Below are positions 7,992 through 64,000 of a stretch of 64,000 bases of DNA, in pieces. The notes beneath the pieces are model-generated. The model saw nothing but the letters and a program-made list of their open reading frames with translations, had not been told where the DNA came from and did no database searches. The DNA comes from Vibrio coralliilyticus (GTDB taxonomy: Bacteria > Pseudomonadota > Gammaproteobacteria > Enterobacterales > Vibrionaceae), in the NCBI RefSeq assembly GCF_024449095.1, contig NZ_CP024627.1, forward strand, positions 1,054,001-1,118,000, written 5' to 3'. Numbering within the stretch: position 1 is the first letter of the stretch; the number at the start of each line of letters is the position of its first letter. The position numbers and the translations under genes were made by a program.

Positions 7992-8088
7992 AAACTCTCC
8001 TTAGACGAAATCATAAGTTATAGGCGACCGATCCTTAGTCGCGATTAAGTCGTTACCGAGAAAAATGTGTGATTGTGTTTGTTTCTCT

Positions 8089-8982
8089 TTAGTCTCCATA
8101 TTTACGCTGATAACGAGGTAGCATACTTTCGTTCCCCAGTAAGCCACCTTGATGGACGTAAATGATCGTTTTATCAGGGTTCTCCGCAAACCAAGACCGT
8201 AAGCATTGCCACATCATTGGGTCGTAGAGTAAATCAAATTCAACGTCAGTTTGCTCCAAAAGTTTACGCCAGATTTCGTAATCTTGGCGATAAAGTTTGC
8301 CGAAATGATGTTTGTTTTCGAGTTCAAGGATATGTGGGAAATCGGTTTCGCCGAGCTGTTTAAATTGCTCGATAAGATACTCCTTACCTCCGACACATGG
8401 GCAAGTAATGACCTCGATATGATGCATTTTAAGAAATTGATGTAGGTATAAAGCGGTGGTGCCCGTTCCTGAAGGTAAGGCGACGGTAAACGTTTTACCT
8501 GTTTCAAAGCGAGTCCAAGACAATATTTCACGGGCAAGTTGTTCAACCCCCAATCGGGCATCGTTGGAGCGACCACCTTCTTCGACGACTAGGCAGGTGG
8601 AATCTGGCTGACGGACAGTTTTAATGAATTCAGTTGGGTGAAGGTTGAGTGCATTGACGGGGATGATGCTGGCACCAAGGTCTAGCGCACCACGATAATT
8701 ACCGATAGGTCTTTCAATTAACCATTGGGGGATATGATCTACGTAAAATTCCAATGACCAGCCCTTGATTGCACACAGTGCTGCTAATGAATAGAGTGAA
8801 TTGGCTTGTGCACTGCCATAGCTAATCAGCGTTTTTGTATTTGGGTAATCTCCTTCCAACAGTGTCATGAACTTGCGCGCTTTGTTACCACTGAAGTGGC
8901 TATGCAGCTGATCATCACGTTTTAGGTAAAAATCAATACCATCGAATTGATGCTGAGTGATTGGCGTGTCGCTAAGTTTCAT
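8089..8982 (-). CDS. PLP-dependent ACC deaminase/D-cysteine desulfhydrase family enzyme
   Basis: A fold-type II PLP enzyme of about 297 residues. LKRDDQLHSHFSGNKARKF holds the Schiff-base lysine in S-G-N-K, GSAQANSLYSLAALC is the substrate-binding turn, and ALPSGTGTTALYL is the phosphate-binding loop. The family covers 1-aminocyclopropane-1-carboxylate deaminases and D-cysteine desulfhydrases; the second activity is commoner in gammaproteobacteria and is my guess. I start at ATG 8982 because the family begins just before this point. An in-frame start at 9066 would add 28 residues encoded partly by a TGTC tandem repeat. No clear ribosome-binding site supports either start. Confidence 0.78.
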   Translation of the reverse strand: MKLSDTPITQHQFDGIDFYLKRDDQLHSHFSGNKARKFMTLLEGDYPNTKTLISYGSAQANSLYSLAALCAIKGWSLEFYVDHIPQWLIERPIGNYRGALDLGASIIPVNALNLHPTEFIKTVRQPDSTCLVVEEGGRSNDARLGVEQLAREILSWTRFETGKTFTVALPSGTGTTALYLHQFLKMHHIEVITCPCVGGKEYLIEQFKQLGETDFPHILELENKHHFGKLYRQDYEIWRKLLEQTDVEFDLLYDPMMWQCLRSWFAENPDKTIIYVHQGGLLGNESMLPRYQRKYGD

Positions 8983-9127
8983 TTGTCTGTCTGTCTGTGC
9001 ATGAAGGAGGGCTATCTTACTCGAATAAGGTTCAAATGTATGAAGGTGGATCAAAAACCGATGCACGTAAGGTTGATGGCATATGGGAAAGGTTATGGCC
9101 TAGAAGTATTGTAGAAAATAATAGGAT

Positions 9128-9159
9128 AAAAAAAGCCCAGAGCAATCTGGCCCTGGGCT
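9128..9159 (-). terminator. Orphan terminator-like hairpin reading leftward
   Basis: Seven-base-pair stem AGCCCAG/CTGGGCT; on the minus strand the 3' arm runs straight into a seven-T tract. No leftward gene lies upstream of it before the divergent psrA-like gene, so it either ends a short untracked transcript or is a leader attenuator for the PLP enzyme. Confidence 0.55.
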
Positions 9160-9353
9160 GATACAAAACATAGGAGTTAATAAGAAAAAGCAGCGTAAAT
9201 TAGTAGTGTCAGTCAAGAAAACAAGTATTACGGCCTGTAAACTTAAGAAGGCTCTGCTAACTACACCTATTCAGACCCCCTTTATTCAAATCAGTTCCAT
9301 CAAAAGCAAAAAAATTTAATTTTTTCTTCAGAAGGTTATCTAGCAACTTTGAT

Positions 9354-9370
9354 ATCTGGTCGGACCAATG
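9354..9370. promoter_or_regulatory. FadR-type operator
   Basis: The 17 bases ATCTGGTCGGACCAATG match the known FadR consensus (A-N-CTGGTCNGACCNGTT type) through the whole core TGGTCGGACCA, which is a near-perfect palindrome. It lies about 24 bases upstream of the proposed -35 of the psrA-like gene. FadR is the acyl-CoA-sensing regulator of fatty-acid metabolism. A site beside a PsrA-type regulator and fadE is functionally coherent. Confidence 0.75.
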
Positions 9371-9393
9371 TTCAAAAGTGTGATGTTAAAAAC

Positions 9394-9437
9394 TTGTTGG
9401 TTATTTGTTTCGGTTGTATATTTCAAACAGTTGTTTA
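9394..9437 (+). promoter_or_regulatory. Promoter of the psrA-like gene with overlapping PsrA-type box
   Basis: TTGTTG (9394-9399) and TATATT (9417-9422) are separated by 17 bases. At 9424-9437, over the expected start of transcription, lies CAAACAGTTGTTTA, an inverted repeat matching the reported gammaproteobacterial PsrA motif (S-AAAC-N4-GTTT-S) with one outer base off. This suggests autorepression. Confidence 0.6.
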
Positions 9438-9452
9438 ATACGAGTGATTGAA

Positions 9453-10079
9453 ATGTCGATGAGAAATACGACCAAAGAGAAAATCCTAGATGTTGCGGAA
9501 GCTCTGTTTGCAGAACACGGTTTCAATGACACGTCATTGCGTACGATAACCAGCAAAGCGGGTGTCAACCTAGCATCGGTGAACTATCACTTTGGTGATA
9601 AGAAGACATTGGTACGTGCCGTATTGAATCGCTATTTGGAGGCATTTATGCCAGCGGTTCAAGATGCCTTGATCAATCTTAATCTCAACGAAGATTACGC
9701 AATGTCCGACGTATTTGAATCATTGCGAGGGCCTTTGCGTGCGCTCAATGATGTCAGACCTAATGGTACGAGTCGTTTCATGTTGTTGATCGGCCGTGGC
9801 TATACCGATGTACAAGGTCATTTACGCTGGTTTATTACCACTCGTTATCAGGATACGTTGTCTTTATTTACTGAATCAGTAATGAAGGCGAATCCTAAAC
9901 TGACTCAGGAAGAGCTGTTCTGGAGATTGCATTTCACCTTGGGGACTTGTGTCTTCACGATGGCGTCAAGCCAAGCTCTGATGGAAATTGCTGAGAATGC
10001 TTACGGGAAGCAGATGGACGCGAAGTCAATTGTCGATCAGCTTATCCCATACTTGGCGGCTGGTGTTGCAGCTGAGTAA
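9453..10079 (+). CDS. psrA: TetR-family regulator, PsrA-like (fatty-acid metabolism)
   Basis: A 208-residue TetR-family protein: N-terminal helix-turn-helix at about residues 8-55 (TKEKILDVAEALFAEHGF, then LRTITSKAGVNLASVNYHFG) and an all-helical ligand domain. PsrA-type regulators sense long-chain fatty acids or acyl-CoA and repress beta-oxidation genes, often including their own gene and fadE, which follows after 66 bases. I use the ATG at 9453 because the upstream frame overlaps the predicted promoter; 9459 is another ATG. The family call rests on the sequence type, the neighbour fadE and the PsrA-type box over its own promoter. Confidence 0.8.
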   Translation: MSMRNTTKEKILDVAEALFAEHGFNDTSLRTITSKAGVNLASVNYHFGDKKTLVRAVLNRYLEAFMPAVQDALINLNLNEDYAMSDVFESLRGPLRALNDVRPNGTSRFMLLIGRGYTDVQGHLRWFITTRYQDTLSLFTESVMKANPKLTQEELFWRLHFTLGTCVFTMASSQALMEIAENAYGKQMDAKSIVDQLIPYLAAGVAAE

Positions 10080-10145
10080 ATAGACAAATCGAAACATAAA
10101 ACAAATATAAATTAGACCACCAACTGTGAACAAAAGGATCTGATT

Positions 10146-12431
10146 ATGTGCTCTCTACGTAGAAAATGGGTCAGTGACCCAGCTTTCAAAATGTTTAAAA
10201 AAGTACTGCCACCGCTTTCCAGCACAGAGAAGGAAGCGATGGAAGCGGGTAGTGTTTGGTGGGACGGGGAGCTGTTCTCTGGTCGCCCGGACTTCTCCAA
10301 GTTACACCAATATCCAACGCCAACTTTGACCGCGGAAGAGCAATCTTTCATTGATAATGAGTTGGAAACTTTGTTGGGAATGCTTGATGACCATAAGATC
10401 GTTAAAGAAGACCGCGACTTGCCTCCTGAAGTTTGGGAGTACCTACGTAAAGAGCGTTTCTTCTCACTCATCATTTCTAAAGAATACGGTGGTCGAGAGT
10501 TTTCTGCGTTAGCAAATTCGACAATCGTCACTCGAATTGCAACACGCAGTATTAGTACTGCCGTTTCTGTCATGGTACCGAACTCATTAGGCCCAGGCGA
10601 ACTTCTTTCACACTACGGGACTCAAGAACAAAAAGACTATTGGTTACCACGTCTTGCCGATGGTACGGATATTCCATGTTTTGCATTAACTGGCCCTGAA
10701 GCTGGCTCTGATGCTGGCGGCATTCCTGATGATGGTATCGTGTGCTATGGCGAACACGAAGGCAAAGAGGTACTGGGTATTCGCCTTAACTGGAACAAGC
10801 GTTATATCACGCTGGCGCCAGTCGCCACCGTACTTGGTCTTGCATTTAAAATGTACGACCCAGATGGCTTGATGGGCGATAAGAAAGAGTTGGGGATCAC
10901 CTGTGCTCTTATCCCTGCCGATCACAAAGGGGTTGAGATTGGCGAGCGTCATGACCCACTAGGTCTTGCTTTCATGAACGGCCCAACGCGTGGTAAAGAT
11001 GTGTTCATTCCAATGGAATGGCTGATTGGCGGTCAGGATTACGCAGGTAAAGGCTGGCGTATGCTGGTGGAATGTCTGTCTGCAGGGCGTGGTATCTCAT
11101 TACCAGCACTGGGCACCGCGATTGGTCATCTAACATCACGCACCACGGGTGCTTATGCCTATGTTCGTAAGCAGTTCGGTATGTCGATTGGTAAGTTTGA
11201 AGGTGTGGCTGAAGCAATGGGCCGAATTGGTGGCCTTACCTACTTGTTGGAAGCGACACGTACTCTAACGACGACATCTTTGGATCTCAAAGAAAAGCCG
11301 GGCATTGTAACGGCAATTGCTAAATACCATATGACAGAAATGGCGCGCACCATCTTAAATGATTCGATGGATATTCACTCGGGTCGTGCGATTCAGGACG
11401 GTCCGATGAACTATTTGGCGACGCACTACTTAGGCATTCCGGTTGCCATTACGGTGGAAGGGGCAAACATTTTGACTCGAAATCTGATGATCTTTGGTCA
11501 AGGTGCGACGCGTTGTCATCCATTTGTTCTAAAAGAAATGGAAGCGGCAGCGAACCCAGATGAGAAGCAAGGGGCAAAAGAATTTGATGAGTTACTCTTC
11601 AAGCATATTGCCCATGCGACTAAGAATACATTTGGTGCGTTTGCGGCAGCCCTCACTGGTTCACGCTTCATCAAAGCCGATATGAGCGGTCCGACTCAAG
11701 GTTATTACAAAGACCTGACTCGTCTAAGCCGTGCTCTGGCCGTAAGTTCTGATATTGCAATGGCGACCTTGGGTGGAGATCTAAAACGTAAAGAAATGAT
11801 CTCGGCGCGTTTAGGTGATGTTCTAGCATACCTTTACATGGGTTCAGCCGCGCTCAAGAAATACGAAGATGAAGGTCGTCAGCAGCAGGATCTTGATTAC
11901 GTGCATTATGCGGTTCAACATTGTCTGCATAACGCTGCGAAAGCGCTTCAAGAAGCGTTTACCAACTATCCTCAAAAAGCAGTGGGCCGTTTGTTGAAGG
12001 TGCTGATCTTCCCATTGGGTAACCACTTTACCAAGCCAAGTGACAATTTAACTGTGAAATTGGCTGAAAGTTTGATGACACCAGGAGCGCACCGCGATCG
12101 CTTAACCCATCTTTGTTATATCGGTAAAGAAGAGGACGACAGCGTTGGTCTGATGGAAAATGCTTTCCTTGCGATGTACGGGGTGAAGAGCCTTGAACGC
12201 AAGCTAATGAGAGCAGCCAAAGAGGGCAAGGTTGCCCGCAAAGGCCTACTTAAAGATCGCCTCGCACAAGCGCTTGAAGCCAACGTGCTGACTCAGGACG
12301 AAGTCGATCAAATTGTTGCTGCGGATGCATTGCGCTACCAAGCGATTCAGGTCGATGACTTTAGCCACGACTTTAGTGAAGTGAGAACGGGTCAAGCGCC
12401 GGTAAAGCCAAAATTGGATAGTGTTGCATAA
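10146..12431 (+). CDS. fadE: Acyl-CoA dehydrogenase FadE
   Basis: A 761-residue FadE-type acyl-CoA dehydrogenase that does the first, FAD-dependent step of beta-oxidation. It contains RFFSLIISKEYGG, the flavin and substrate block PCFALTGPEAGSDAGG, WNKRYITLAP, the GPTRGKDVFIP loop and VEGANILTRNLMIFGQGA with the C-terminal domain special to FadE. Compared with E. coli FadE (814 residues) it lacks the N-terminal hydrophobic segments: the homologous text begins near residue 13. An in-frame stop at 10113 rules out an upstream extension. An AAGGA site lies seven bases before the ATG. It follows the psrA-like gene and is followed by a strong terminator. Confidence 0.95.
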   Translation: MCSLRRKWVSDPAFKMFKKVLPPLSSTEKEAMEAGSVWWDGELFSGRPDFSKLHQYPTPTLTAEEQSFIDNELETLLGMLDDHKIVKEDRDLPPEVWEYLRKERFFSLIISKEYGGREFSALANSTIVTRIATRSISTAVSVMVPNSLGPGELLSHYGTQEQKDYWLPRLADGTDIPCFALTGPEAGSDAGGIPDDGIVCYGEHEGKEVLGIRLNWNKRYITLAPVATVLGLAFKMYDPDGLMGDKKELGITCALIPADHKGVEIGERHDPLGLAFMNGPTRGKDVFIPMEWLIGGQDYAGKGWRMLVECLSAGRGISLPALGTAIGHLTSRTTGAYAYVRKQFGMSIGKFEGVAEAMGRIGGLTYLLEATRTLTTTSLDLKEKPGIVTAIAKYHMTEMARTILNDSMDIHSGRAIQDGPMNYLATHYLGIPVAITVEGANILTRNLMIFGQGATRCHPFVLKEMEAAANPDEKQGAKEFDELLFKHIAHATKNTFGAFAAALTGSRFIKADMSGPTQGYYKDLTRLSRALAVSSDIAMATLGGDLKRKEMISARLGDVLAYLYMGSAALKKYEDEGRQQQDLDYVHYAVQHCLHNAAKALQEAFTNYPQKAVGRLLKVLIFPLGNHFTKPSDNLTVKLAESLMTPGAHRDRLTHLCYIGKEEDDSVGLMENAFLAMYGVKSLERKLMRAAKEGKVARKGLLKDRLAQALEANVLTQDEVDQIVAADALRYQAIQVDDFSHDFSEVRTGQAPVKPKLDSVA

Positions 12432-16973: not shown

Positions 16974-19091
16974 ATGCGAGCCCTTTCCGTTCAATGGAAA
17001 ATAACCTTACTAGCAGGTTGCTGCCTGCTCATCACATCTCTATCCCTGATCGGGTTCTCTGTCTACAACGCGGTGACTAACCAGCAGCAGATCAAAGCAC
17101 AGAGTGCTGCATCTGTTATCAATAAATCGGAACAACTACTTGAAACTCGAGCCTTACTCAATGCGACAGAGGTTGCCGAATACCTCAATGAGGCTTTGTA
17201 TCGCGCTGAGATGTTGGCATCGAACGCACTGTTTCTGAAAACCAATACCGAAGAAAATTTTGGAGATAGTGAAGAATTACGCACAGCGCTGGATGAAATG
17301 GTGCGCAAATCAGTATTGGGCTTTGAATCTATTCAGGGAGCTTACTTGGTATTTAGGCCCAACATGTTAGATGGCGAAGACAGTAACTACGTTGATGCGG
17401 AATACGTAGGCTCGAATGAGAGAGGGCAATTTGCGCCTTATTGGGTGACAGCGCAAAATGGAGAGAATGTTGTATCGAATGTGCTAAGTGAAGCTGCACT
17501 GGAAGATACTCAAAATAGTGAGAGATTCTTTTGCCCGCTATCTAGTGGCGGTTCATGTGTTAGCACGCCTAGATTCATCAGCCAAGCTGGTGGACAGGTT
17601 CTGGCTACCTCTATATCTGTTCCTATCATGATTGATGATACTGTGATTGGCTTCTTTGGTACTGATCTTCGCCTAGATACGATGGCGAATATTGTGGCTG
17701 AGTCAGACAGCCAGCTTTTTGATGGTAGCGGAAATGTCAATATTATCAGCTTGGATGGTTCCTTAATTGCTAGTGATGATCCTTCTCATGCAGTCGGTCA
17801 AGCTTTCAATAGTAAGACGTTGTCCAATGACCAACTGACGGACCTTCTGTTTGGCCAAGAGGTGCAAACCCAATGGAGTGCAGATGGAAAATGGTTGAGC
17901 GTATTTGCCCCTATTATGGTTGCTAATCAAACTTGGGGTGTATTATTTGATATGCCAAGAAGCAGTGTGTTGGCTGATGCAGAGATGCTTGATCAGACCA
18001 TCAGTCACCAAGTAGAGTCGAGTGTGAAAACCGAAGTACTAGCGGGCTTAATTTTGGTTATTTTTGGTTTAGTGACCATCGCGTTGATGGCCTCTCGTTT
18101 AGTCAAACCCATTCGTGAAGTGGTTGCGAGGTTGGATGATATTGCATCTGGTGAAGGGGACTTAACTCAACGGCTGGATGTGAAATCCCAAGACGAGATT
18201 GGTCAGCTTGCTACTGGGTTCAACAAATTCCTTGATAAGCTTCAGTCTATTATTAGTGATGTCGTAGAAACGACGTTGCAGATAGGTACGACGACAGAGC
18301 AGTCTCGAATCGCAGCTCAGCAAACTCGCTCAAGCAGTGATTCTCAGTTTAAAGAAGTCGATTTGGTGGCCACCGCCTCTGAAGAAATGACACAAACGGC
18401 AGGCCTTGTTGTTCAAAACGCGGAAGTGGCTGTCAGTGAAGCTGAAAAAGCCAACGTCGCTGCAGACTCAGGTAAAAAAGTAATAGAACAATCTCAGGAT
18501 GAGATGGTTCGTTTGGTTGAGAGAATGACGGCAGCGGTGCCTGTTGTTGAAGAGTTAGCGAAGAATAATGCCAACATCACTGAGATATTGACGGTTATTG
18601 AAGGGATTTCTGAACAGACAAATTTGCTGGCATTAAACGCTGCTATCGAAGCTGCACGGGCCGGTGACCAAGGGCGTGGCTTTGCGGTTGTTGCTGATGA
18701 GGTACGCAACCTCGCTAGCCGAACTCAGTCTTCTGTGGGAGAGATTCGTCAAGTGATTGAAGATGTTCAAAAGGGGACGCAAGATGTGGTGAATGCCATT
18801 CAAGACGGTAATGATCTCGCCAACGATTCTGCTCAGCAAGTTGAAAGAGCGGTGTTGCAACTGAACAATATCTTTGAAGCCATTGCTTCGATTAACGATA
18901 TGAACTCGCAGATTGTGAAAGCGGCTGAAGAGCAGCAGTCGGTCTCTACGGAGGTCAATCAGAGCGTCAGCAATATTCGAGACTTGAGCGCACAAATCTT
19001 ATCTCAAGCAGAAGAGTCCGAAACTGTCAGTAGGCAAATTGGAAATTTGTCCCAAAGACAGCAACAGCTGGTGAGCCAGTTTAAAGTGTAA
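16974..19091 (+). CDS. Methyl-accepting chemotaxis protein with dCache sensor
   Basis: A 705-residue chemoreceptor. Order: membrane segment at about 9-31, periplasmic double-Cache sensor at about 45-345, second membrane segment at about 355-373, HAMP at 374-427 ([25 protein letters not shown]), then the cytoplasmic signalling hairpin with its conserved tip [20 protein letters not shown]. Two cysteines 8 residues apart in the sensor ([12 protein letters not shown], about 187 and 195) could form a disulfide. There is no C-terminal pentapeptide tether for CheR/CheB; it ends [10 protein letters not shown]. An AAGGA site precedes the ATG. The ligand cannot be predicted. Confidence 0.95.
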
Positions 19092-45327: not shown

Positions 45328-45510
45328 TGTCGCGGTAGAGGTGCGAAATAAATCAGTAGTATTTGTTGGGGTGATGCCAATGAACAGATATGAAAGGTTG
45401 TTTTGCCGAAGTGAGTATTCATATCAACGGTGCTTGCTGGGGTTACACTCGAAAGGGGTAACACTGCCATAGTCTATAATTTTGTAAAACTATGGAGCGC
45501 TACTGTAGGG
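45328..45510 (+). ncRNA. Lysine riboswitch (L-box)
   Basis: Sequence shows the L-box landmarks in order: GGTAGAGGTGCG at the 5' side, the TTGGGGTGATGCC and TTGTTTTGCCGAAGT core, TCAACGGTGCTTGCTGGGGT, the hairpin GGGTTACACTCGAAAGGGGTAACACTG, CATAGTC/GACTATG-like helix pieces, and GGAGCGCTACTGT at the 3' side. P1 can form between GCGGTAG (45332-45338) and CTACTGT (45500-45506). Lysine binding to such RNAs lowers expression of lysine synthesis or uptake genes; here the gene is the NhaC-family carrier downstream. Confidence 0.9.
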
Positions 45511-47379: not shown

Positions 47380-47427
47380 ATGCGTAATTTTGTAATGAAC
47401 ATTCATCACCATCATCACCCAGTCTAG
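47380..47427 (+). CDS. hisL: His operon leader peptide
   Basis: A 15-residue peptide MRNFVMNIHHHHHPV with five consecutive His codons, ending in TAG. Too short for usual gene callers. Scarcity of charged histidyl-tRNA stalls the ribosome here and prevents formation of the downstream terminator. Confidence 0.93.
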   Translation: MRNFVMNIHHHHHPV

Positions 47428-47501
47428 TCTTTCGGGAGATGTACGCATACCCGGGGGACAGGAAACTCCCGGAGGCAGAAATCGCAAACTACAAGATTTA
47501 G

Positions 47502-47537
47502 AACCCTCGGGAGACTACTCTTCCGAGGGTTTTTTAG
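47502..47537 (+). terminator. His operon attenuator
   Basis: Nine-base-pair stem AACCCTCGG/CCGAGGGTT with a 12-base loop followed by TTTTT, 75 bases after the leader peptide and 40 before hisG. The region between (CCCGGGGG and CTCCCGGAGG around 47449-47475) can form the competing hairpins. Confidence 0.88.
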
Positions 47538-47578
47538 TTTTAACGATTTAAGAATTAATTTGCACAGGGATAAAAGCA

Positions 47579-54115: not shown

Positions 54116-54747
54116 GTGTGAAAGCCGCCGAAGTCAGTTCGCTAGCTGAGCGAATCAACTGGGAAAAGGTGGATGGTCTGGTACCTGCCATCGTACAAGA
54201 TTTCCAATCAAGCCAAGTGCTGATGATGGGTTACATGAACCAAGATGCGTTGGCAAAAACGGGTGAAACGGGTCAAGTGACGTTTTTCTCTCGTACCAAA
54301 CAGCGTCTTTGGACCAAAGGTGAGACCTCTGGCAATGTATTGCAATTGGTGAACATTCAGCTCGATTGTGACAACGATACGCTACTGGTGAAAGTGAATC
54401 CCATTGGTCCTACGTGCCACTTGGGTAACACAACTTGCTGGGATGTCGATCCACAAGAGGAGTCACAAATGGTGTGGCTTCATCAACTTGAGCAGCTATT
54501 GGCTGCCCGCAAGAGTGCCGACCCAGATTCCTCTTATACTGCCAGTCTTTATGCCCGTGGCACCAAGCGTATTTCGCAGAAAGTGGGCGAAGAAGGCGTT
54601 GAAGTCGCGCTTGCGGCGACGTCGGGTGACAAGGCGGAGTTAGTGTGTGAATCAGCAGACTTGATTTATCACTTGCTGGTATTGCTGCAAGACCAAGGCT
54701 TATCGATGAATGACGTAGTGAACAAACTTAAAGAGCGTCATAAATAG
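54112..54747 (+). CDS. hisI: Bifunctional phosphoribosyl-AMP cyclohydrolase/phosphoribosyl-ATP diphosphatase
   Basis: A 211-residue HisIE fusion. The cyclohydrolase half (about 1-118) has [38 protein letters not shown] and [12 protein letters not shown] with its zinc cysteine. The diphosphatase half (about 120-211) has [27 protein letters not shown]. Last gene of the operon, followed by a terminator. Confidence 0.97.
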
Positions 54748-54810
54748 CTTTTTGGCTTTCGAGCAAAACCTAATCTTATAAGTATACTCATCTCAACATC
54801 TCCCCTGACT

Positions 54811-54838
54811 AAACCGTAAGTACGCCTTACGGTTTTTT
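54811..54838 (+). terminator. Terminator of the his operon
   Basis: Ten-base-pair stem AAACCGTAAG/CTTACGGTTT with a five-base loop, followed by a T-tract. Confidence 0.88.
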
Positions 54839-54986
54839 TGTTGTAAATATCATCTTTATCGATCGTTTCTTTCGTTATCGCGTATATAAACTACTCTTCT
54901 TAAAAGGGCTTTTATGTTGCTACTTTTGTTGGTAAGAAGTTGTAGCGTAAGACGAAATGAGGTTGTTGAGTTATGAGGAGGTCGGA

Positions 54987-56198
54987 GTGAAGGTGGCTCA
55001 CGGCAAAAAAATAACGCTTATTGCAGATGATCAAAAAGTAGTGAGGCACACCCTGAAGCTCTGCTTACAAAATCTCGATTATCAGGATGTGCTAGAAGCA
55101 TGTGATGGAAAAGAAGCCAAGCAACTCGCAGTCGAGCACGATATTGATATCATCTTTTGTGACTTAAATATGCCAGTTGAAGATGGCTTTGAGGTGTTGC
55201 GATACTTAGGCGAAATCCATTTCAGTGGCAGTGTGATTTTAATCAGTGGCGAGGAAGAAGAAGTGTTATCTTCATCTTCGAACCTAGCCCGTCTTTACAA
55301 GCTCGACATTTTAGGTAGTTTGAAGAAACCCATCTCTTTTACTACGGTGAAAGATTTGATGTCACAGGTCGAAAAGTCAACAATATCAAGAATCAACAAT
55401 CGTCCTCCCCCGGTTTTGAGTGCGGCATCGGTTCAACACTTTATTGATACGGGTTGCGTGAGGGCATTCTTTCAACCCCAGATAGAGTTGGAAACGGGTC
55501 GGGTCTGTGGCTTAGAAGTTTTGGCTCGTGTTGTGGATGAAGATGATAATATTATCCCTCCTGACAGTTTTATTCCCGTAGCAGAAAAGAATTTAGACCT
55601 CATTTTATCACTCACCAAAACCATTATTCGAGCAGCCTTTTCTGATATAGCCAAACATTTCCAATCTCTTCAAGACATTACATTTTCCCTCAATATATCG
55701 GCAAAAGTTTTGGAAGACCAAGGTTTTACTAGCTGGCTGGACCAGGTTGCAAATGAATATCAAATTCCGCAAGAAAGCATTTTATGTGAGTTAACCGAAA
55801 CAGCGCTGACTCATGATCAGGCGGCTATTAACACGCAATTGCTTCGGCTAAGGCTACTTAAGTTTAATCTTTCAATCGATGACTTTGGTACAGGCTATTC
55901 TTCTATTGCTCAGCTTCACTCTATACCTTTCAATGAACTTAAAGTAGACAAGCGCTTTGTGCTCGACTGCTTAACAAACACCAAGTCTCAAGCAATCTTG
56001 GAGCAAAGTGTTCGGATGGGTAAAGCAATGGGTATGAGTGTTGTAGCCGAAGGGGTCGAAAATCGTGAAGTTGAAGAATTTTTAGTGTCTATCGGTTGCA
56101 ATATTGCCCAAGGCTACTTGTATTCTAAGCCGGACGAACTGAGCTACATCCTTGCTTATATGAAGCGCTCAAATAGCATTTATGAGGATCGCTCATGA
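54987..56198 (+). CDS. Response regulator with EAL domain (c-di-GMP phosphodiesterase)
   Basis: A 403-residue REC-EAL protein. The receiver (about 8-125) has the acidic pair in LIADDQK, phosphoacceptor D59 in FCDLNMPVEDG and K114 in LKKPI. The EAL domain (about 145-395) keeps the catalytic set: E177 in GLEVLAR (written E-V-L), N236 in SLNISA, E271 in ELTETA, D298-D299 in IDDFGTGYSS, K319 in ELKVDK, E355 in VAEGVE and Q375 in IAQGYLYSKP, so it should hydrolyse c-di-GMP. I choose GTG 54987, five bases after GAGGAGG; an ATG at 54957 has no site. The stop overlaps the kinase ATG (ATGA), so this regulator is probably its output. Confidence 0.92.
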   Translation: MKVAHGKKITLIADDQKVVRHTLKLCLQNLDYQDVLEACDGKEAKQLAVEHDIDIIFCDLNMPVEDGFEVLRYLGEIHFSGSVILISGEEEEVLSSSSNLARLYKLDILGSLKKPISFTTVKDLMSQVEKSTISRINNRPPPVLSAASVQHFIDTGCVRAFFQPQIELETGRVCGLEVLARVVDEDDNIIPPDSFIPVAEKNLDLILSLTKTIIRAAFSDIAKHFQSLQDITFSLNISAKVLEDQGFTSWLDQVANEYQIPQESILCELTETALTHDQAAINTQLLRLRLLKFNLSIDDFGTGYSSIAQLHSIPFNELKVDKRFVLDCLTNTKSQAILEQSVRMGKAMGMSVVAEGVENREVEEFLVSIGCNIAQGYLYSKPDELSYILAYMKRSNSIYEDRS

Positions 56199-59100
56199 AG
56201 TTTTCTACCAAACTACCGTTACTGTTTTTTGTTTTTGGAGTGTTGATGTTGGGAGCGGTGACTCTGACATCTTGGAAAGGTAAAGACATTCTACAAGAGA
56301 CGACGTTCACGAATATTGAAAGGGAAGCGGCGCTGCTTATCCGCCTTATTGAGCGTAACTTATTTGAGCGCTACCACGATGCTCAAGCGTTTCCTATGTC
56401 GTTAGGTGTGGTAGATAAAGAGCAGTTAGACTACGTGGCAACCAGTTCTTTGATGGCTGAAAACCTTAATAATTTTGTACAAAATTATAAAGTTTATAGG
56501 CGGATACTTATTTTCGATTACGAAGGTAATATTCTTGCTAGTAATACAGAGAATGAATTTGGAAAAACGTTACCTAATCTCACACGTACCGCACGAGAGG
56601 TAAGAGAGACCCAGTGGTTTTCGGAAGCCATTTCTGGAATCACATTAGCCCCAGACAGCCCAAGAAGTAGTTATGTTTTTGGGCCTGAACGATATTTGAT
56701 CGATGACAACCCTAATTCTTACGATATGGTTTTTGCCACGCTAATTTTAGACCGAGCTGGAGAGCCGGCGGGCCTTTGGGTAAATGTGGTTGATTTTAAA
56801 GCTGTAGAGGCCATTGTCTCTGATACATACGACCTGTTATCGAAACGTGGTTTCTTAAGTTCTGAGTTAACGATACTTGATAACAAGGGCCGGATAATTG
56901 TTGACTACGATCCGGTAGGACAAAGTGAAGCTGTCTATGAAAGGGATTTCGACGTTCTGAGCCAGTTAAACTTAGCAACCAATGGTGTTGAGGGGGCAAG
57001 ACTGGCGGTGTCAGGGCTGAGTGGCTCAAATGTGTCTACCCATTTTCGGAAACAAGTCGATCAGGTGACAGGATACGCCTACACCAATGGCGCTTATGAC
57101 TACCCAGGTTTAGGTTGGTCCGCGTTAATACGTGTTGAAGTCAGCGAGGCATTCGCGGATTCGGAAAGTCTATACAAAAGCTCTTTTGCGCTGGCGGGCT
57201 TATTATTGACGCTCATCATCTTAGTGGCGTTTTATCTTGGGAAAAGAATCGCCAGACCGCTGAATGAATTATCTAAAGCAATCAACAGCTTAGCACATGG
57301 AGAGAAGGATGTGACTTTACCGGAAATATCCGGAAAAGATGAAATTGCTAAAATGGTTTCTGAGTTGAAAAACCTCAAAGAAATCGTTGTGGAGCGAGCT
57401 AAGCTAACCAAAGAAACGGATGAGCAGCGTTTTCAATTAGAAATCCAAAGCCGCGCAATCGATTCGACAGCAACGGGTATTACGGTTGCAGATGTACGGT
57501 TGCCTGACTCACCAATCATATTTACTAATAAAGCGTTTGAAGATCTTACTGGGTATACACGAGATGAAGTCATCGGTCGCAATTGCCGATTCCTGCAAGG
57601 TAATGATACCGAGCAACCTGATATTGAGAAACTCAGGTATGCAATAGCCAATAAAGTATCTTGTTCGGTAGTGCTAAAGAACTACAAAAAAGACGGTACC
57701 TTGTTCTATAACAATTTACGTATCGACCCTGTATTTAATGATGATGGCGAACTCACTCATTACATTGGTGTTCAGACGGATATTACTGAAATTAAGAGGA
57801 TTGAGGATCAAGCGAAAATTAAGCTTGAGGATGAAGTTGCCCGAAGAACCCAGCAAGCTCGTGATTCTGAAAGTCGCCTACGTACGGTTTTTGATACTGC
57901 GCTCGATGGTACGGTGGTGATTGATAATAAAGGCATTATCGTTGATGTTAACCGCTCGCTTGAAATGATTTTTGGTCGAATAAGAGAGGAGCTGGTTGGG
58001 GAAAATGTCAGCATTCTTATGCCTCCACACTATGCTGATGTTCATGACGGTTTCATTTCTAAGTACTTGTTAACTGGAAATAAAAAACTCATCGGGACAC
58101 CACGCCAAGTAGAAGGGTTACATAAATCTGGTCGTGTATTTCCTATCGAGGTTTCTGTTGGGGAAACTTGGTTGGGAGATGCTCAGGTTTTTGTTGGCGT
58201 AGTCAAAGACATTACATCACAAGAAGAAACCAAACAGCGAGAGAAGAGACTACAGTCGGAATTACGCGAGCGGGAACTGGTCTACCGCGCCGCATTCAAT
58301 CAGGCGGCAGTAGGTATTTGCCGAGTGGATCTTGATGGCAACTTTATCGAAGTAAACGACAAAATGTGTGAGATCTTCGGTTACAGTGAACCTGAGCTAT
58401 TAGAGCTGAGCTATCTCGATGTGACTCATCCTGAATACCGCGAAAAGAGCCAACGTTTGGTAGGGCAACTGACCGAAAGCGATAAGCGATCGTTCACTAT
58501 CGATAAGCTCTACTTAAGTAAATCGGGGTCAGAGTTCTGGGCGACTATTTCAGTGTCCATCGTTTGCGAGGACGACACAGTACCCAAATATTTTGTGGCT
58601 GTTGTTGAAGATATCTCTAATCGAAAACGGATTGAAAAAGAGCTTCGCTCTGCAAAAGCTGTTCGAGACGAGTTATTACGAGGAATGCGTTTAGCCTCTG
58701 ACGCTGGTGGTATCTGTAACTGGTCGCTAGACATTCAGTCACAGGCACTACGCTGGGATGAAGGCATGTATCGCCTATATGGTATTGAACCCAATAAGCC
58801 AGTGTCCTATCCCGATTGGGAACAAAGCATACACCCTGATGACCGTGAAAGTGCAGTAACAAGCTTTAATCGCGCGGTTGAAGACGGTGATGTATACAAC
58901 GCAGAGTTTCGAATCATTAACCAGGCTACAGGCACAATGCATTGGGTGAAGGCCGCTGGGGATGTAGTTGTTGATAAAGACTCTAATTTACGTCATGTCT
59001 TTGGTATTAACCTCGATATCACAGAAGAAAGAGATATTCAGGCCGCTCTCGAGAAAGAGAGTATTGCCGCAAAACAAGCGAATGAAGCCAAATCTCGCTT

Positions 59101-60991
59101 CCTCGCCACGATGAGCCATGAAATACGTACACCGATGAATGGTGTTATAGGCATGGTAGACCTTCTGAAAGAAACTGCTCTCGACTACGATCAAGGGAGA
59201 ATGGTGAGCACCATTCGTGATTCGTCCTTCTCCTTACTGGAAATCATTAACGACATTCTCGATTTCTCGAAAATCGAATCGGGGCAGATGGAGTTAGATC
59301 CGACGGAAACTAACCCTCTTTATCTGATAGAAAAAACACTGGAGGCGCTGTGGTTAAGCGCTAATCAGAAAGGCGTTGATGTGTTTATGACATACGAGAG
59401 CCAAATTCCAGAATTTATACTTATAGATCCAGTTAGAACTCGCCAAATTATCCTTAATCTGCTTGGCAATGCCGTCAAGTTTAGTCAGTGCAAAGATAAA
59501 TCGGGCTTAGTCAAAGTGGCGACGAGCTATGATAATACACAGCAGCTTCTCTCGATCTCGGTAGAAGATAATGGCGTGGGTATGACAGAAGAGCAGCAAT
59601 TGAAGCTGTTTAAGCCATTTACACAAGCTGACAGCTCAACCACAAGAAAGTTTGGTGGTACAGGGCTTGGTCTTAGCATTACTAAATCCTTCATTGATCT
59701 AATGGGGGGGAATATTGATGTCGAAAGCCGTATTGGTGAAGGAAGCAAATTTTCGTTTACGATTCCTGCCGCGCCATGCCGTACCCACTCAGTATTTGGT
59801 CGTTTTGATTTCTCTACGATAACGTTGGTTTTAGACATTGAAAATGCCAACCTCAAGCATATATGTGCTGAAATTCTAAGTAGCTTCGAGACACGAGATA
59901 TTATTGTTGATGTTCAGTCATCGTTTACTTGGGAAGAGCATAAAGCGGTCTATTTGACCGACGATGATATCGCCAATGTGGCTCAAGGGCGTTCGCTGAT
60001 ACTCAGTGATAATCCGGCAGCAAAAGGGGGGTACATAGCGCCGGATAAGTATGGTGTTGGTACACACCCACTCAAGCCCAGTGAGCTAGTGATCGGTCTA
60101 GCTATCTTGACCGGTCAAGAAAGCCCAGATTTTGATTGGAGCGAAGCGATTACAGCTGAGAGCACCGATAACAGCGAAATTGATTGGGTGAATAATCAAG
60201 ATATCACAATCCTATGCGCAGAGGATCAACCAACCAATCAGATGGTATTGGCTCAGCAGCTTACTAAGTTAGGTTATCGCTTTGATATGGTGGACAACGG
60301 GCGTGAGGCGCTTGAAAAATGGCAATCAAATGACTATGCGCTAGTGTTAACAGATTGCCATATGCCGGAAATGGATGGCTTTGAACTGACTTCAGAAATT
60401 CGCCGTATTGAGTCGGAAATGGTCAGTGAAAGGACTCTGATCATTGCCATTACTGCCAATGCGTTGGTCGGTGAAGCGGAACATTGTTTAGAAGCGGGAA
60501 TGGATGACTATATTCCCAAGCCTGTTGAGCTTTCTACCCTAAGGAAAGTATTAGCACTTCGTTTACGTGGCAAATCACTACGCAAGCCGAAAGGTGACAG
60601 TGAGAACCAACTTGCTGAACCAGTCAAAACTCTTGATTTACCTGAAAATGACTCGAAGCCATTGATCGACTTAAATCACCTTAGTGAAGTGATCGGTAGC
60701 CGAGATGAAGAAATGACTCGAGCTGTTTTATCGATGTTTTGGGAAAGTGTGTCGCAGGATATCGAGAAAATGCAAGTAGCCTGCCAAGAGAACGACTTAT
60801 CACAAGTTAAAAGTTTGTCTCATGGTGCGAAGGGGGCAGCAGCTTCCAGTGGGGCTTTATTACTGAGTGAGATCTTTCGTTCGATAGAAAAAAACAGCCA
60901 TGATATTGAACACGTCGAGCAAGCGATAAAAGAAGTGGTCAATATGATGAAGAAAATACAGCAGCAGTTAGAGCGAGATAAAATCATCTAG
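56195..60991 (+). CDS. Hybrid histidine kinase with dCache, LOV, PAS, REC and HPt domains
   Basis: A 1598-residue membrane kinase. Order: membrane segment 7-27; periplasmic dCache-like sensor 30-327; membrane segment 330-349; HAMP 350-402; LOV-type PAS at about 415-535 with GRNCRFLQG (flavin Cys464) and the FMN contacts N496 in KNYKKDG, N506/N507 in FYNNL and Q527 in IGVQTDIT; PAS at about 558-675, 692-810 and 830-948; phosphorylation His975 in MSHEIRTPMNG; ATPase N-box LLGNAVKFS, G1 EDNGVGM, G2 GGTGLGLSI; receiver about 1335-1455 with D1387 and K1442; HPt with H1543 in HGAKG. A complete phosphorelay in one chain, coupled to the REC-EAL gene before it. Blue-light sensing is predicted from the LOV motif, not shown. 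Confidence 0.93.
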   Translation: MKFSTKLPLLFFVFGVLMLGAVTLTSWKGKDILQETTFTNIEREAALLIRLIERNLFERYHDAQAFPMSLGVVDKEQLDYVATSSLMAENLNNFVQNYKVYRRILIFDYEGNILASNTENEFGKTLPNLTRTAREVRETQWFSEAISGITLAPDSPRSSYVFGPERYLIDDNPNSYDMVFATLILDRAGEPAGLWVNVVDFKAVEAIVSDTYDLLSKRGFLSSELTILDNKGRIIVDYDPVGQSEAVYERDFDVLSQLNLATNGVEGARLAVSGLSGSNVSTHFRKQVDQVTGYAYTNGAYDYPGLGWSALIRVEVSEAFADSESLYKSSFALAGLLLTLIILVAFYLGKRIARPLNELSKAINSLAHGEKDVTLPEISGKDEIAKMVSELKNLKEIVVERAKLTKETDEQRFQLEIQSRAIDSTATGITVADVRLPDSPIIFTNKAFEDLTGYTRDEVIGRNCRFLQGNDTEQPDIEKLRYAIANKVSCSVVLKNYKKDGTLFYNNLRIDPVFNDDGELTHYIGVQTDITEIKRIEDQAKIKLEDEVARRTQQARDSESRLRTVFDTALDGTVVIDNKGIIVDVNRSLEMIFGRIREELVGENVSILMPPHYADVHDGFISKYLLTGNKKLIGTPRQVEGLHKSGRVFPIEVSVGETWLGDAQVFVGVVKDITSQEETKQREKRLQSELRERELVYRAAFNQAAVGICRVDLDGNFIEVNDKMCEIFGYSEPELLELSYLDVTHPEYREKSQRLVGQLTESDKRSFTIDKLYLSKSGSEFWATISVSIVCEDDTVPKYFVAVVEDISNRKRIEKELRSAKAVRDELLRGMRLASDAGGICNWSLDIQSQALRWDEGMYRLYGIEPNKPVSYPDWEQSIHPDDRESAVTSFNRAVEDGDVYNAEFRIINQATGTMHWVKAAGDVVVDKDSNLRHVFGINLDITEERDIQAALEKESIAAKQANEAKSRFLATMSHEIRTPMNGVIGMVDLLKETALDYDQGRMVSTIRDSSFSLLEIINDILDFSKIESGQMELDPTETNPLYLIEKTLEALWLSANQKGVDVFMTYESQIPEFILIDPVRTRQIILNLLGNAVKFSQCKDKSGLVKVATSYDNTQQLLSISVEDNGVGMTEEQQLKLFKPFTQADSSTTRKFGGTGLGLSITKSFIDLMGGNIDVESRIGEGSKFSFTIPAAPCRTHSVFGRFDFSTITLVLDIENANLKHICAEILSSFETRDIIVDVQSSFTWEEHKAVYLTDDDIANVAQGRSLILSDNPAAKGGYIAPDKYGVGTHPLKPSELVIGLAILTGQESPDFDWSEAITAESTDNSEIDWVNNQDITILCAEDQPTNQMVLAQQLTKLGYRFDMVDNGREALEKWQSNDYALVLTDCHMPEMDGFELTSEIRRIESEMVSERTLIIAITANALVGEAEHCLEAGMDDYIPKPVELSTLRKVLALRLRGKSLRKPKGDSENQLAEPVKTLDLPENDSKPLIDLNHLSEVIGSRDEEMTRAVLSMFWESVSQDIEKMQVACQENDLSQVKSLSHGAKGAAASSGALLLSEIFRSIEKNSHDIEHVEQAIKEVVNMMKKIQQQLERDKII

Positions 60992-61010
60992 CCGATGGCA
61001 AGGAGGTACT

Positions 61011-61934
61011 TTGTTAAACCTACATGTGATGGATCAAACGCCTTTTGCGACATTTTCTGAGGCGAGTCGTAGTACGCTGAAATACCTTAGAAATAAGTAT
61101 GGGTATGGGGCTTGGATGATGACGCGTAAAAATGAGGATGAGTGGGTTATATTACAGGTTGAAGGAGATGGGTATCAAATCGACGAGTTAACGGTCATTA
61201 ATTGGAATGACTCTATGTGCAGTCGCATGGTCAAAGGTGAAGGGCCTAGGTGGGCTCCTGATGTCGATGACATTCCATCTTATGTTGAAGCGCCAATTTA
61301 TAGAGCGGAAAAAATTAAGTCATATGTTGGGATCCCAGTTTGTTTTGCCAATGGCGATCTGTTTGGCACCTTATGTGCGATTGATACAGTACCATCTGGT
61401 AGAATCCCTGCGGATGGTAAAGAAACCGTTGAATTAGTCTCTAAACTACTCTCAAGCCTATTGCAGTTAGAACTGCAAAATATAGCTTTATCTCGTAAGC
61501 AAATTAGTTTTTTACCTGAACCATTAAAAGATAACCAAACGGGTTTTTTAAACCGATTAGGGTGGTCAATATACTTGGAGAAGGAGGAGAGTAATGTTCG
61601 TGCAGTGGGGACTCCTCTGTATATTGTGGCTCTGGATGTGACCTTGCCTGGCAAAGAAAAGGGAGATGAGTATCAACAGTTGCTGACTATTGTTGTATCT
61701 ATCATTAATTCATCAGTCACTGATGAGGGGGTTATCGCCCGGCTTAGTGATAACATATTTACCATTTTGTTAGCGAATAGCTCAAATAAGCAGTTTAAAC
61801 TTTGTCTGGATACACTAGAAAGGGAATTAACCGAGGCGAGTGTTGTCGCTCAAATTGGCTCTGAGAAACACAACTATACAGATAAGCTAGATGCGACGGT
61901 AATGAGTGCAATAAAAAGTGCACGATCGAGTTAA
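61011..61934 (+). CDS. GAF protein with degenerate GGDEF domain
   Basis: A 307-residue cytoplasmic protein. GAF domain at about 10-155 (YVGIPVCFANGDLFGTLCAID is its hallmark strand pair). A GGDEF fold at about 170-305 starts with DNQTGFLNRLGW, the usual D-x-x-T-G-x-x-N-R entry, but the active-site turn reads RLSDNIFTIL: SDNIF replaces GGDEF, and no RxxD I-site is seen, so it should not make c-di-GMP. It may bind GTP or c-di-GMP or act as partner. Start is TTG at 61011, supported by AAGGAGGT at 61000-61007; the next starts lie too far away. Follows the kinase after 19 bases. Confidence 0.85.
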   Translation: MLNLHVMDQTPFATFSEASRSTLKYLRNKYGYGAWMMTRKNEDEWVILQVEGDGYQIDELTVINWNDSMCSRMVKGEGPRWAPDVDDIPSYVEAPIYRAEKIKSYVGIPVCFANGDLFGTLCAIDTVPSGRIPADGKETVELVSKLLSSLLQLELQNIALSRKQISFLPEPLKDNQTGFLNRLGWSIYLEKEESNVRAVGTPLYIVALDVTLPGKEKGDEYQQLLTIVVSIINSSVTDEGVIARLSDNIFTILLANSSNKQFKLCLDTLERELTEASVVAQIGSEKHNYTDKLDATVMSAIKSARSS

Positions 61935-61955
61935 AAGAAAGAGTTAGGGGGTGAC

Positions 61956-63101
61956 ATGGATGTTTCGCAAACCAGTATTTACATATTCTATAATTCGAAA
62001 GAAATACTAGATATGGTAAAGCCTGTTGCGTCAATATTGTTCGATAATGTGTCACCCATTAATATTGAGAAAGAACAAGCCAAGTTTGTGCAGTCGCTTA
62101 AGCAGCCACACTTAAGCATTATTTCTATCTATGCTTTTGAAAGTCCTAAAGAAGCGGCCACCCTTTCCAAGTTGCTCAATGAGCATGGTGCTCTTCAACA
62201 TCAAGCACACATTCCTAAATACGATCTATTAATGTGCAATAAATCTTATCGTCAGGAAGCATATGACCTATGCGTTAAGGAACTGTTCTATAGCTATGAA
62301 ACGATCAAGCCAATTTATGACACCAACAAGGTTATCCTGACATTGCGTCGACTAGCGCAGCACTTGGCGACCAAAGTAGAGCTCCAACAAGTTGAACAAG
62401 ATAATCTTAAGATGGAAGAGAGCATTAATAGCAGTATTGAGTCGATAGATGCTTTGCAAACGCAGGTACAGGAGACATCAACTCAGCAAGATAGTGAGTT
62501 TGAACAGGTGACTAAGTCGCTTAATGAGCTATTGGCTCGAGTGCCAGCCATTGAGTGGGAAAAAGCATTTACTAATATTGTGCGCTCAATGCCGGAATCT
62601 GTACAAAGAACGACACTCAGCCAATTCTCTATTAAAGAATTTCGTGATGATCTAGAAAAATATCGCAATAACAGTGCAGAAATGCTGAATAAGATTTCCA
62701 GCTCTCTGGACGCTTCAAAGCCTCAGACTTTATCTAAAGGGCCGTTGATCGTTGTTGCTGATGATCAGCCTGTGATGCTAAAAATCATATCCTCAATTTT
62801 AGAGCCAAAGGGCTATAAAGTCGAAAGCGCAAGTAATGGTGTCGAAGCTCTTATGAAAGCAAAAGTCATGAAACCAGAGCTCATACTTCTCGATATAGAT
62901 ATGCCGATCATGGATGGTTTAGCAACGTTAGACGCAGTGAAAAAGGTCGAGACTATTAAGCACATACCAATTATCATGCTAACCAGTCACTCTGATAAAG
63001 ACATCATTAAATCCAGTATCAGCCTGGGTGCTGTCGATTATGTTGTGAAACCGACGAAAGCTGATATCCTTCTTGCGAAAATCGCGAATGCGTTAAAATA
63101 G
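61956..63101 (+). CDS. Response regulator with unusual N-terminal and coiled-coil regions
   Basis: A 381-residue protein. The C-terminal receiver (about 262-381) is complete: VADDQPV acidic pair D269-D270, phosphoacceptor D313 in LLDIDMPIMDG, Thr in MLTSHSD and K365 in VVKPTK. The N-terminal 130 residues (SIYIFYNSKEILDMV, then HLSIISIYAF) alternate strands and helices like a receiver without phosphorylation residues; I cannot name the family. Between lies a helical linker, with a likely coiled coil at about 135-195. No output domain is present, so it may act by protein contact or as phosphate sink of the kinase. Starts 21 bases after the GAF gene. Confidence 0.85.
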   Translation: MDVSQTSIYIFYNSKEILDMVKPVASILFDNVSPINIEKEQAKFVQSLKQPHLSIISIYAFESPKEAATLSKLLNEHGALQHQAHIPKYDLLMCNKSYRQEAYDLCVKELFYSYETIKPIYDTNKVILTLRRLAQHLATKVELQQVEQDNLKMEESINSSIESIDALQTQVQETSTQQDSEFEQVTKSLNELLARVPAIEWEKAFTNIVRSMPESVQRTTLSQFSIKEFRDDLEKYRNNSAEMLNKISSSLDASKPQTLSKGPLIVVADDQPVMLKIISSILEPKGYKVESASNGVEALMKAKVMKPELILLDIDMPIMDGLATLDAVKKVETIKHIPIIMLTSHSDKDIIKSSISLGAVDYVVKPTKADILLAKIANALK

Positions 63102-63176
63102 GCCACATGAGCTAGTTATTAAACGATAGAAGCCATCAATTTTATGCAAACTCATTTGTGCGTTGACTTAACGTTG

Positions 63177-64000
63177 TCACTCGAATACTAGGTAGTAACT
63201 GTAACCCACCACTAGGGCTGGAATCGCAGAGTAAACAGTCGCAACTAGTGCCGCTTTAGGGGCCAATGCGATAGCAGGAAATAGCGCATCGCCATCATTG
63301 GATATCGCATTCGCTAATTGTGCAGATAAAGGCACCGCGCCTGAAATGTAGAGACTGGTGACTAAGATTTGAGGCCCACATCCTGGTAGCATACCGACAG
63401 CGACCCCGAGCAAAGGCATCCACGCACCCCAACCGGAAAAAGTCTCCGTTAAGTTAATGTGACCAAAGTAGGCTATGAGTTCAAAGGTCATAAAAGCGAG
63501 AACAACCCATGCAGTTACGAAGTTAGTATCTTGCGCCGCTTTCTGCAGGGGATGTGAAGAAACGGTTTTTTTATCTTCCGATACTGTTGACTCATAATCT
63601 TTGATTTCTTTGGTTAAGGACCAAAGTAACATGCTAAGAATGATAAGCCCTGTTCCTAGCCATTCAATACTCGCTGCAGGAAGAGAAAGAAGCGTGTTGA
63701 TATCCACTTGAAACGAGCCTAGTACGGCAACAAATATTGCTGGTACGATTAGCCATTGCCAAAAGGCACCTTGGAGATTGATGGCCTTCTTTTCAAAGTG
63801 GGACTGCTGACTATGATCAGAGCGGCAGCAGAACTTTTCAGCTAATGCTGATGTAACGGTTGGTCTTAAGAAGTCGTCTTGATGGATAGCGTTGACAACC
63901 CATCCAGAGACCGAGCCTACCACAATGCCCAGTGCAACAACGGCCAAACCTATGTCAGGTTTACTGGCTAACAGAAGAAACGCAGCATCCCCCATCGTAG
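63177..64000 (-). CDS. Multi-membrane-segment protein, putative metal exporter family (partial)
   Basis: The last 274 or so residues of a membrane protein that runs off the right edge; the reading frame is still open at base 64000, so the Met at 63995 is internal. At least seven membrane segments are visible, with a His/Cys-rich loop (FCCRSDHSQQSH) and the block GMLPGCGPQILVTSLYISGAVPL plus SNDGDALFPAIALAPKAALV. This looks like the family annotated as putative manganese or 10-TM heavy-metal exporter (DUF2899/ArsP-like). The metal is not known. Orientation is convergent with the signalling cluster. Confidence 0.65.
   Translation of the reverse strand, partial: TMGDAAFLLLASKPDIGLAVVALGIVVGSVSGWVVNAIHQDDFLRPTVTSALAEKFCCRSDHSQQSHFEKKAINLQGAFWQWLIVPAIFVAVLGSFQVDINTLLSLPAASIEWLGTGLIILSMLLWSLTKEIKDYESTVSEDKKTVSSHPLQKAAQDTNFVTAWVVLAFMTFELIAYFGHINLTETFSGWGAWMPLLGVAVGMLPGCGPQILVTSLYISGAVPLSAQLANAISNDGDALFPAIALAPKAALVATVYSAIPALVVGYSYYLVFE

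Follow-up and report, generated by a model that had tools for sequence, protein, structure and literature searches.

A candidate LOV-controlled phosphorelay to a c-di-GMP phosphodiesterase in Vibrio coralliilyticus, with putative auxiliary regulators

We describe a four-gene cluster of Vibrio coralliilyticus, lying on the + strand downstream of the his operon, that encodes a REC-EAL response regulator, a membrane hybrid histidine kinase with a LOV domain, a GAF protein with a degenerate GGDEF domain and a last protein that ends in a receiver (REC). To the reading of this cluster as a LOV-controlled phosphorelay to a c-di-GMP phosphodiesterase, equipped with VieB- or HnoD-like auxiliary regulators, we give somewhat better than even credence. 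The membrane kinase would read a periplasmic signal together with blue light, the latter via its LOV domain, and phosphate would travel from His975 to Asp1387, on to His1543 of the HPt domain and from there to the REC of the EAL phosphodiesterase; the phosphorylated REC would change phosphodiesterase activity and hence the breakdown of c-di-GMP. The last protein would be a second phospho-acceptor that acts on the kinase in an auxiliary role, in the way VieB acts on VieS, rather than a classical output, and likely a dimeric docking protein working through its N-terminal domain (N-domain) and coiled coil. The GAF protein would be a pseudo-enzyme with an optional regulatory part in this complex. 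The light response, the flow of phosphate, the sign of the effect and the roles of both partner proteins are what we infer from sequence. The general plan of a kinase, a REC-EAL protein and an auxiliary REC protein is already known from VieSAB, Hno and Roc/Pvr.

Gene layout and domain content

The window, by which we mean the whole stretch of 64,000 nucleotides that was analysed, covers positions 1054001-1118000 of contig 1 in a genome of 5.02 Mb and three contigs, and the features under discussion are collected in Table 1. The four genes are packed as the original prediction described them, on one strand with overlaps or gaps of about 20 bases: the REC-EAL and kinase genes overlap by 4 bases, and gaps of 19 and 21 bases lead into the GAF-GGDEF gene and the last gene, respectively, a spacing that suggests an operon. 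A terminator-like hairpin separates it from hisIE, so that the cluster is probably transcribed as a unit of its own. The 10-pair stem of this hairpin is the longest among the sites listed in a scan of positions 54600-63400, which observed nine terminator-like sites where shuffled sequence would lead one to expect 6.3. Between the hairpin and the REC-EAL gene the scan listed no sigma-70-like promoter. On the 3' side the cluster faces a convergent gene (63177-63995) for an ArsP_2-type exporter. Elsewhere in the window, Rfam matches mark a lysine riboswitch (45328-45510), a histidine operon leader (47403-47538) and, on the minus strand, VrrA (9127-9264), a Vibrio small RNA regulating OmpA.

Table 1. 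Coordinates of the cluster's features in the window
Feature	Position	Strand	Basis
Terminator-like hairpin with T tail, between hisIE and the REC-EAL gene	54811..54835	+	hairpin scan
REC-EAL response regulator, candidate c-di-GMP phosphodiesterase	54987..56198	+	Pfam, alignment
REC and EAL domains of this protein	REC ~55017-55349; EAL ~55428-56132	+	Pfam, both far above cut-off
Membrane hybrid histidine kinase, 1598 aa	56195..60991	+	Pfam, alignment
LOV domain, residues 420-545	57452..57829	+	solved LOV chains among best matches
HisKA (His975) and HATPase_c	59087..59773	+	Pfam, alignment
REC (Asp1387) and HPt (His1543)	60209..60964	+	Pfam, alignment
GAF and degenerate GGDEF protein	61011..61934	+	Pfam, alignment, predicted structure
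N-domain of last protein, no Pfam family	61956..62321	+	predicted structure, alignment
Coiled-coil linker: long helix at residues 123-195, further helices to 254	62322..62720	+	predicted structure
C-terminal REC of last protein (gene runs 61956-63101)	62745..63095	+	Pfam, alignment

For the REC-EAL gene we kept the predicted start at GTG 54987, which is preceded by AGGAGG and matches the first residue of the relative in L026; an in-frame ATG at 54957 is the alternative. Four REC and ten EAL positions, chosen as functional, are all invariant in 18 aligned sequences, window included; the REC acceptor is Asp69 when the protein is numbered as 413 aa. The EAL fold thus keeps its metal-binding and catalytic residues, as had been predicted, which marks the protein as a candidate c-di-GMP phosphodiesterase. 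Its best NCBIfam match is PvrR (NF052596), at 225.6 bits against a curated cut-off of 580, and we rejected it as a PvrR equivalog on that score.

The kinase runs from a dCache-like sensor through HAMP, LOV, three PAS domains, HisKA, HATPase_c and a segment with no Pfam match to REC and HPt. The phosphorylatable His of HisKA, the HATPase_c domain, the REC Asp and the HPt His are all present, so that the description as a LOV-containing hybrid kinase with an HPt holds at the level of its phosphorelay and LOV residues. The periplasmic sensor foreseen as dCache does give a dCache match, yet one below the Pfam cut-off (24.1 against 45 bits), and such a domain is probable there. The segment without a Pfam match (residues 1200-1330) was compared with the N-domain and with REC, and neither comparison supported kinship (E 0.32 and 0.11, respectively). 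The LOV motif, GRNCRFLQ, holds the photoactive Cys464 (codon 57584-57586), and this Cys and six further LOV positions are canonical in the alignment, as are the Asn, Asn and Gln positions that follow GxNCRFLQ. The domain is accordingly a candidate flavin-binding photoreceptor with a photocycle, to judge by these residues.

The third gene starts at TTG, preceded by AAGGAGG, and its product bears out the prediction of a GAF protein with a degenerate GGDEF: LSDNI replaces the signature motif and the metal-site loop is shortened. We rejected it as a diguanylate cyclase, given that it has neither a GG(D/E)EF motif nor a full metal-site loop, although the top Foldseek neighbours of its GGDEF-fold domain (mean pLDDT 91.4) are diguanylate cyclases. 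The degenerate form is common to all 12 close-subfamily members aligned; a canonical GGDEF occurs in 10 of 11 more distant rows, and in 10 of 23 rows overall. Named relatives of this gene include one from V. coralliilyticus; in the genus sample relatives occur in four of 227 genomes, three of them degenerate and in this cluster and one canonical and at another site. All eight loci seen with the degenerate protein, a small number, have REC-EAL in the cluster. A GAF-GGDEF protein with an intact GGDEF (L048, 6071-7027) is 35% identical to the third protein, lies outside any kinase cluster seen and may resemble the ancestor from which the degenerate form arose.

The last protein, modelled with a mean pLDDT of 84.2 and a pTM of 0.46, had been predicted as a coiled-coil REC protein; both parts are there, and a separate alpha/beta domain at its N terminus had been overlooked. 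Asp313 (the acceptor), Thr343 and Lys365 of the C-terminal REC are invariant in all 20 aligned family members. For the N-domain, Pfam scans of 12 members returned no credible family, and the best match to a solved structure by sequence was a designed protein (E 0.045). Its predicted beta-alpha order fits receiver topology, its acceptor Asp is not conserved, and comparison with REC profiles gave E 3.6e-5 (probability 45%) with broad alignments and E 0.23 with narrow ones. The narrow-profile value gives no support to a plain receiver; after the broad-profile value we kept the N-domain as probably a receiver without its acceptor Asp. In a fold search of the whole protein the rows shown match the C-terminal REC, and some PleD rows nearly span the model, at an rmsd above 20. 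Cys94 and Cys106 are invariant in 20 close sequences aligned; across 23 rows that include distant ones Cys106 is still invariant and Cys94 is kept in at least 90%, and the still more distant L087 has neither. The nearest named relative belongs to V. zhanjiangensis. In two distant relatives (L083, 8713-10314; L085, 8249-9817) a hemerythrin domain follows the receiver, and the acceptor Asp of that receiver seems to be replaced.

Conservation of the neighbourhood

Ten of the 227 genus genomes, window included, hold close relatives of the last gene, defined by an E value of 1e-30 or less, and the 17 close-relative loci that we read (window counted) are all ten of the genus and seven more. The hybrid kinase adjoins the last gene in every one of the 17, REC-EAL lies 5' of the kinase in ten, and a GAF gene stands between kinase and last gene in three, namely the window, G032 and G204. 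Conservation of all four genes together, which the original prediction had proposed as a check, is rare, with a complete set in three loci; the steadier pair is the kinase and the last gene. Among the loci read, the site at the his operon is common to the window and G032 alone. A scan of genome contigs yielded one full-length relative of the last gene (L021, which is the G204 contig) and four loci that match its receiver part only. The kinase frame is broken at two loci, into two ORFs in L044 (4702-9485) and three in L075 (6823-11580), the latter one of the 17; either decay or assembly error may account for this.

Outside the 17 loci, Pseudoalteromonas luteoviolacea encodes both partner proteins, and five Salinivibrio-type genomes, of a sister genus and with L044 among them, carry REC-EAL, the kinase and the GAF gene. 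Whole-genome searches of these five at E 0.01 found no N-domain, so the last protein is not obligate. From these genomes and the 17 loci together, we conclude that the presence of the GAF protein does not depend on that of the last protein, nor the reverse, and that the kinase is constant.

Since the genome that holds the window has 56 HATPase_c matches in its 5.02 Mb, kinase adjacency by chance can be estimated at a few per cent, a figure that uses an assumed gene number and not a matched control. Pairwise identities of the kinase core track those of REC-EAL (r 0.94, 14 rows; 0 of 2000 permutations reaching the value), of the GAF protein (r 0.90, 7 rows; 2 of 2000) and of the last protein (r 0.78, 16 rows; 0 of 2000), values that common species history alone also yields. 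Sequence and neighbourhood agree with the prediction that the REC-EAL protein is the partner of the adjoining HPt kinase, with which it co-diverges. Because residues are intact at every step and the partners co-diverge, His-Asp-His-Asp transfer to REC-EAL would be the most likely path, by which light might either lower or raise c-di-GMP. The patchy spread of the last gene (10 of 227 genus genomes) and of the GAF gene (4 of 227) would fit a view of both proteins as phosphate sinks or decaying passengers with no specific role, but the receiver residues invariant in 20 of 20 members, the kinase linkage in 17 of 17 loci, the invariant N-domain positions among proteins 33-73% identical to the window's and the degenerate GGDEF common to 12 of 12 close-subfamily members all argue against it, and we regard it as quite improbable.

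The N-domain reaches well beyond this close family. With a cut-off of E 1e-3, its profile matched 20 genomes among 394 from the order, and with one of E 1e-5 it matched 5 among 369 from the class, the window's own genome counted each time; the distant set so obtained comprises 17 N-domain genes in 16 loci, with the locus of every new genome covered. A kinase, identified by BLAST with the window kinase and for some also by Pfam scan, lies no more than two genes from 15 of these 17 genes, the exceptions being L077 and L083; in L080 it is on the opposite strand, and in L086 one gene intervenes. The inputs of these kinases vary, with NIT in an L078 kinase and CHASE in an L076 kinase, and in L079 and L092 the kinase and the N-domain gene are separated by a stand-alone HPt gene. 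This recurrent kinase with varied inputs argues that the last gene is a general phosphorelay component, not one specific to light. REC-EAL is also near five of the 17 (the second copy in L076, and L078, L080, L094 and L095). L076 has two N-domain genes (9618-10781 and 17632-18741), about 8 kb apart and each behind its own hybrid kinase; at the second, REC-EAL lies between kinase and N-domain gene.

The loci that lack REC-EAL bear on what the last protein does. Seven of the 17 kinases with a neighbouring last gene have no REC-EAL beside them, so that the module does not require the phosphodiesterase as a linked output; these loci, and the lack of REC-EAL near 12 of the 17 distant genes, mean that the last protein can serve without a neighbouring phosphodiesterase. 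This is what one would expect if it were a separate output arm, in which REC phosphorylation would alter docking of the N-domain to some cell machinery (motor, pole or secretion) and REC-EAL would be a second, optional arm; the hemerythrin domain added in two distant relatives points the same way. In the neighbourhoods read, where the systematic search covered kinase, EAL, GAF and N-domain genes, we saw no other gene recur, however, and unlinked phosphodiesterases could still be targets, so that we think a separate arm unlikely, if worth keeping in view. We prefer to see the last protein as a regulator of the kinase, because its receiver is intact, it joins an N-domain to a coiled coil, and its constant partner is the kinase and not the EAL protein.

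The LOV site across the family

We compared 20 family kinases, with three outgroup rows set aside and the broken kinases of L044 and L075 left out. All seven LOV positions are canonical in ten (window, L026-L029, L043, L045-L047 and L072); seven (L030-L034, L070 and L074) have at the same place a PAS domain without the Cys in which LOV-site residues are partly kept; L073 has the variant motif DCTLLH; and L035 and L071 have no LOV-like domain. Light may accordingly be the kinase's input, as originally predicted, where the LOV residues are present, and light as a general input of the module was rejected, the Cys having been lost in relatives. The L073 kinase ORF (7931-11860; 1309 aa) is without most of the periplasmic sensor and may be a genuine short version or the product of a frame break. 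In L035, a Motilimonas-type genome whose kinase has neither LOV nor the membrane sensor part, the relative of the last gene has a DNA photolyase family gene (Pfam FAD_binding_7; 2780-4372) some 3 kb away.

That the module persists without the Cys in seven of 20 kinases, with LOV-site residues partly kept, could mean that the domain at this position is mainly a redox or flavin sensor and light a side input in some lineages; a parallel exists in RmcA, a Pseudomonas aeruginosa phosphodiesterase with a Cys-less LOV-like PAS domain, which the part of PMC8846402 used here ties to phenazine redox and light. Against this stand the seven LOV positions canonical in the window, four further genus genomes, four Salinivibrio-type genomes and one other, a set that would be hard to keep in ten genomes without photochemistry, and we judge a mainly redox role improbable. 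An intact LOV site also goes with a REC-EAL neighbour, which is beside ten of ten intact-LOV kinases against four of ten others (one-sided Fisher about 0.005, by hand), an association that is suggestive, the rows being related.

Within the genus the canonical site is scarce. A scan of 227 genomes with degenerate DNA and no mismatches found GxNCRFLQ in six; five of the matches are this kinase, and the sixth (G131), in no ORF of at least 90 aa, was set down to chance. The five kinases with an intact site hence account for all in-frame GxNCRFLQ motifs in the sample, in a scan that covers that motif only, so that LOV proteins with another motif escape it, and whose control, the pattern written backwards, gave a single match in each of four genomes. 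The five genus and four Salinivibrio-type intact-site kinases form one clade (98/98) and L072 is placed elsewhere; on the kinase-core tree (18 rows) the fewest LOV-site changes are two. A single clade of all ten was rejected (p-AU 1e-39), in a test with three long end branches and a group defined after the first tree was seen. Either two gains or repeated losses would account for this history.

Known systems and the meaning of the cluster

A close published parallel is VieSAB of Vibrio cholerae, where a complex sensor kinase and an EAL response regulator likewise share one operon with a REC protein as its third product. According to the part of PMC4352251 available to us, VieB binds VieS and blocks its autophosphorylation and phosphotransfer, tuned by the REC Asp of VieB. 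VieSAB differs in the additional HTH domain of VieA, in a tetratricopeptide repeat domain (listed among the keywords of PMC4352251 and taken by us as VieB's) and in the position of the receiver, for Asp62 of VieB implies an N-terminal REC, whereas the live REC of our last protein is C-terminal, after N-domain and coiled coil; that part of the paper mentions no LOV domain, unlike the kinase here. A whole-protein Pfam scan at E 0.01 assigned the last protein to no TPR family, and the N-domain alone gave a TPR_NAA35 match below cut-off (16.6 against 27 bits), so by domains it is not a REC plus TPR protein of VieB type. In the Shewanella system HnoK/HnoS-HnoB-HnoC-HnoD, a REC-EAL phosphodiesterase similarly stands under kinases and an output-less response regulator, and HnoD inhibits the REC-EAL protein HnoB; it differs in the degenerate HD-GYP domain that HnoD carries and in sensing NO with a protein of its own, HnoX, which acts on HnoK (PMC6335343 and PMC8846402, in the parts consulted). 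A HnoD type was rejected for the last protein on domains, the Pfam scan giving no HD-GYP match.

Our likening of the last protein to VieB and HnoD thus follows their published descriptions and not sequence similarity. By this analogy we favour a VieB-like action on the kinase over a HnoD-like action on the phosphodiesterase, because the last gene stays with the kinase also at loci that have no REC-EAL. The possible new adaptor step of the original prediction would not be new in kind if it is an output-less auxiliary response regulator in a system with a kinase and an EAL protein, as VieB and HnoD are published cases.

In RocS1-RocA1-RocR and PvrSR/RcsCB of P. aeruginosa, kinases also feed a REC-EAL phosphodiesterase via HPt, RocS1 and RocS2 using their own and PvrS that of RcsC; their other regulators bind DNA, and the portion of PMC5812489 used here does not mention LOV. 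PST-LOV of Pseudomonas syringae resembles our kinase in joining LOV, histidine kinase and REC and in affecting motility under blue light, and differs in that the sections of PMC8508746 at hand describe no membrane sensor, HPt or REC-EAL neighbour. SL2 and BlrP1 place an EAL domain under blue-light control, but as one-protein sensors with no phosphorelay, as summarised in the relevant part of PMC8846402. In titles and abstract openings of mostly non-subscription literature we recognised no account of this cluster, of the family that joins N-domain, coiled coil and REC, or of such a LOV kinase in Vibrio.

We advance, at a little short of even credence, a broader reading: the last protein would belong to the hybrid-kinase phosphorelays of Gammaproteobacteria as a third component not described before, gating kinase or phosphodiesterase for any input (LOV, NIT, CHASE or PAS), and a few Vibrio and Salinivibrio would have gained or kept true LOV photochemistry and with it a direct light-to-c-di-GMP phosphorelay. 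If so, the Vibrio LOV kinases would be the only canonical LOV proteins seen in the genus sample. They would qualify the printed statement of a review, in the part of PMC8508746 seen, that 84 Vibrionales genomes hold no LOV homologue. The same reading would name a recurrent and testable family of regulators in phosphorelays that are often beside c-di-GMP phosphodiesterases, and would give a reason for the output-less partner of some hybrid kinases. The natural variants with and without the LOV Cys, REC-EAL and the GAF protein offer a set in which different inputs and outputs can be compared on a single phosphorelay, and some Vibrio would have a direct blue-light route into the c-di-GMP pool.
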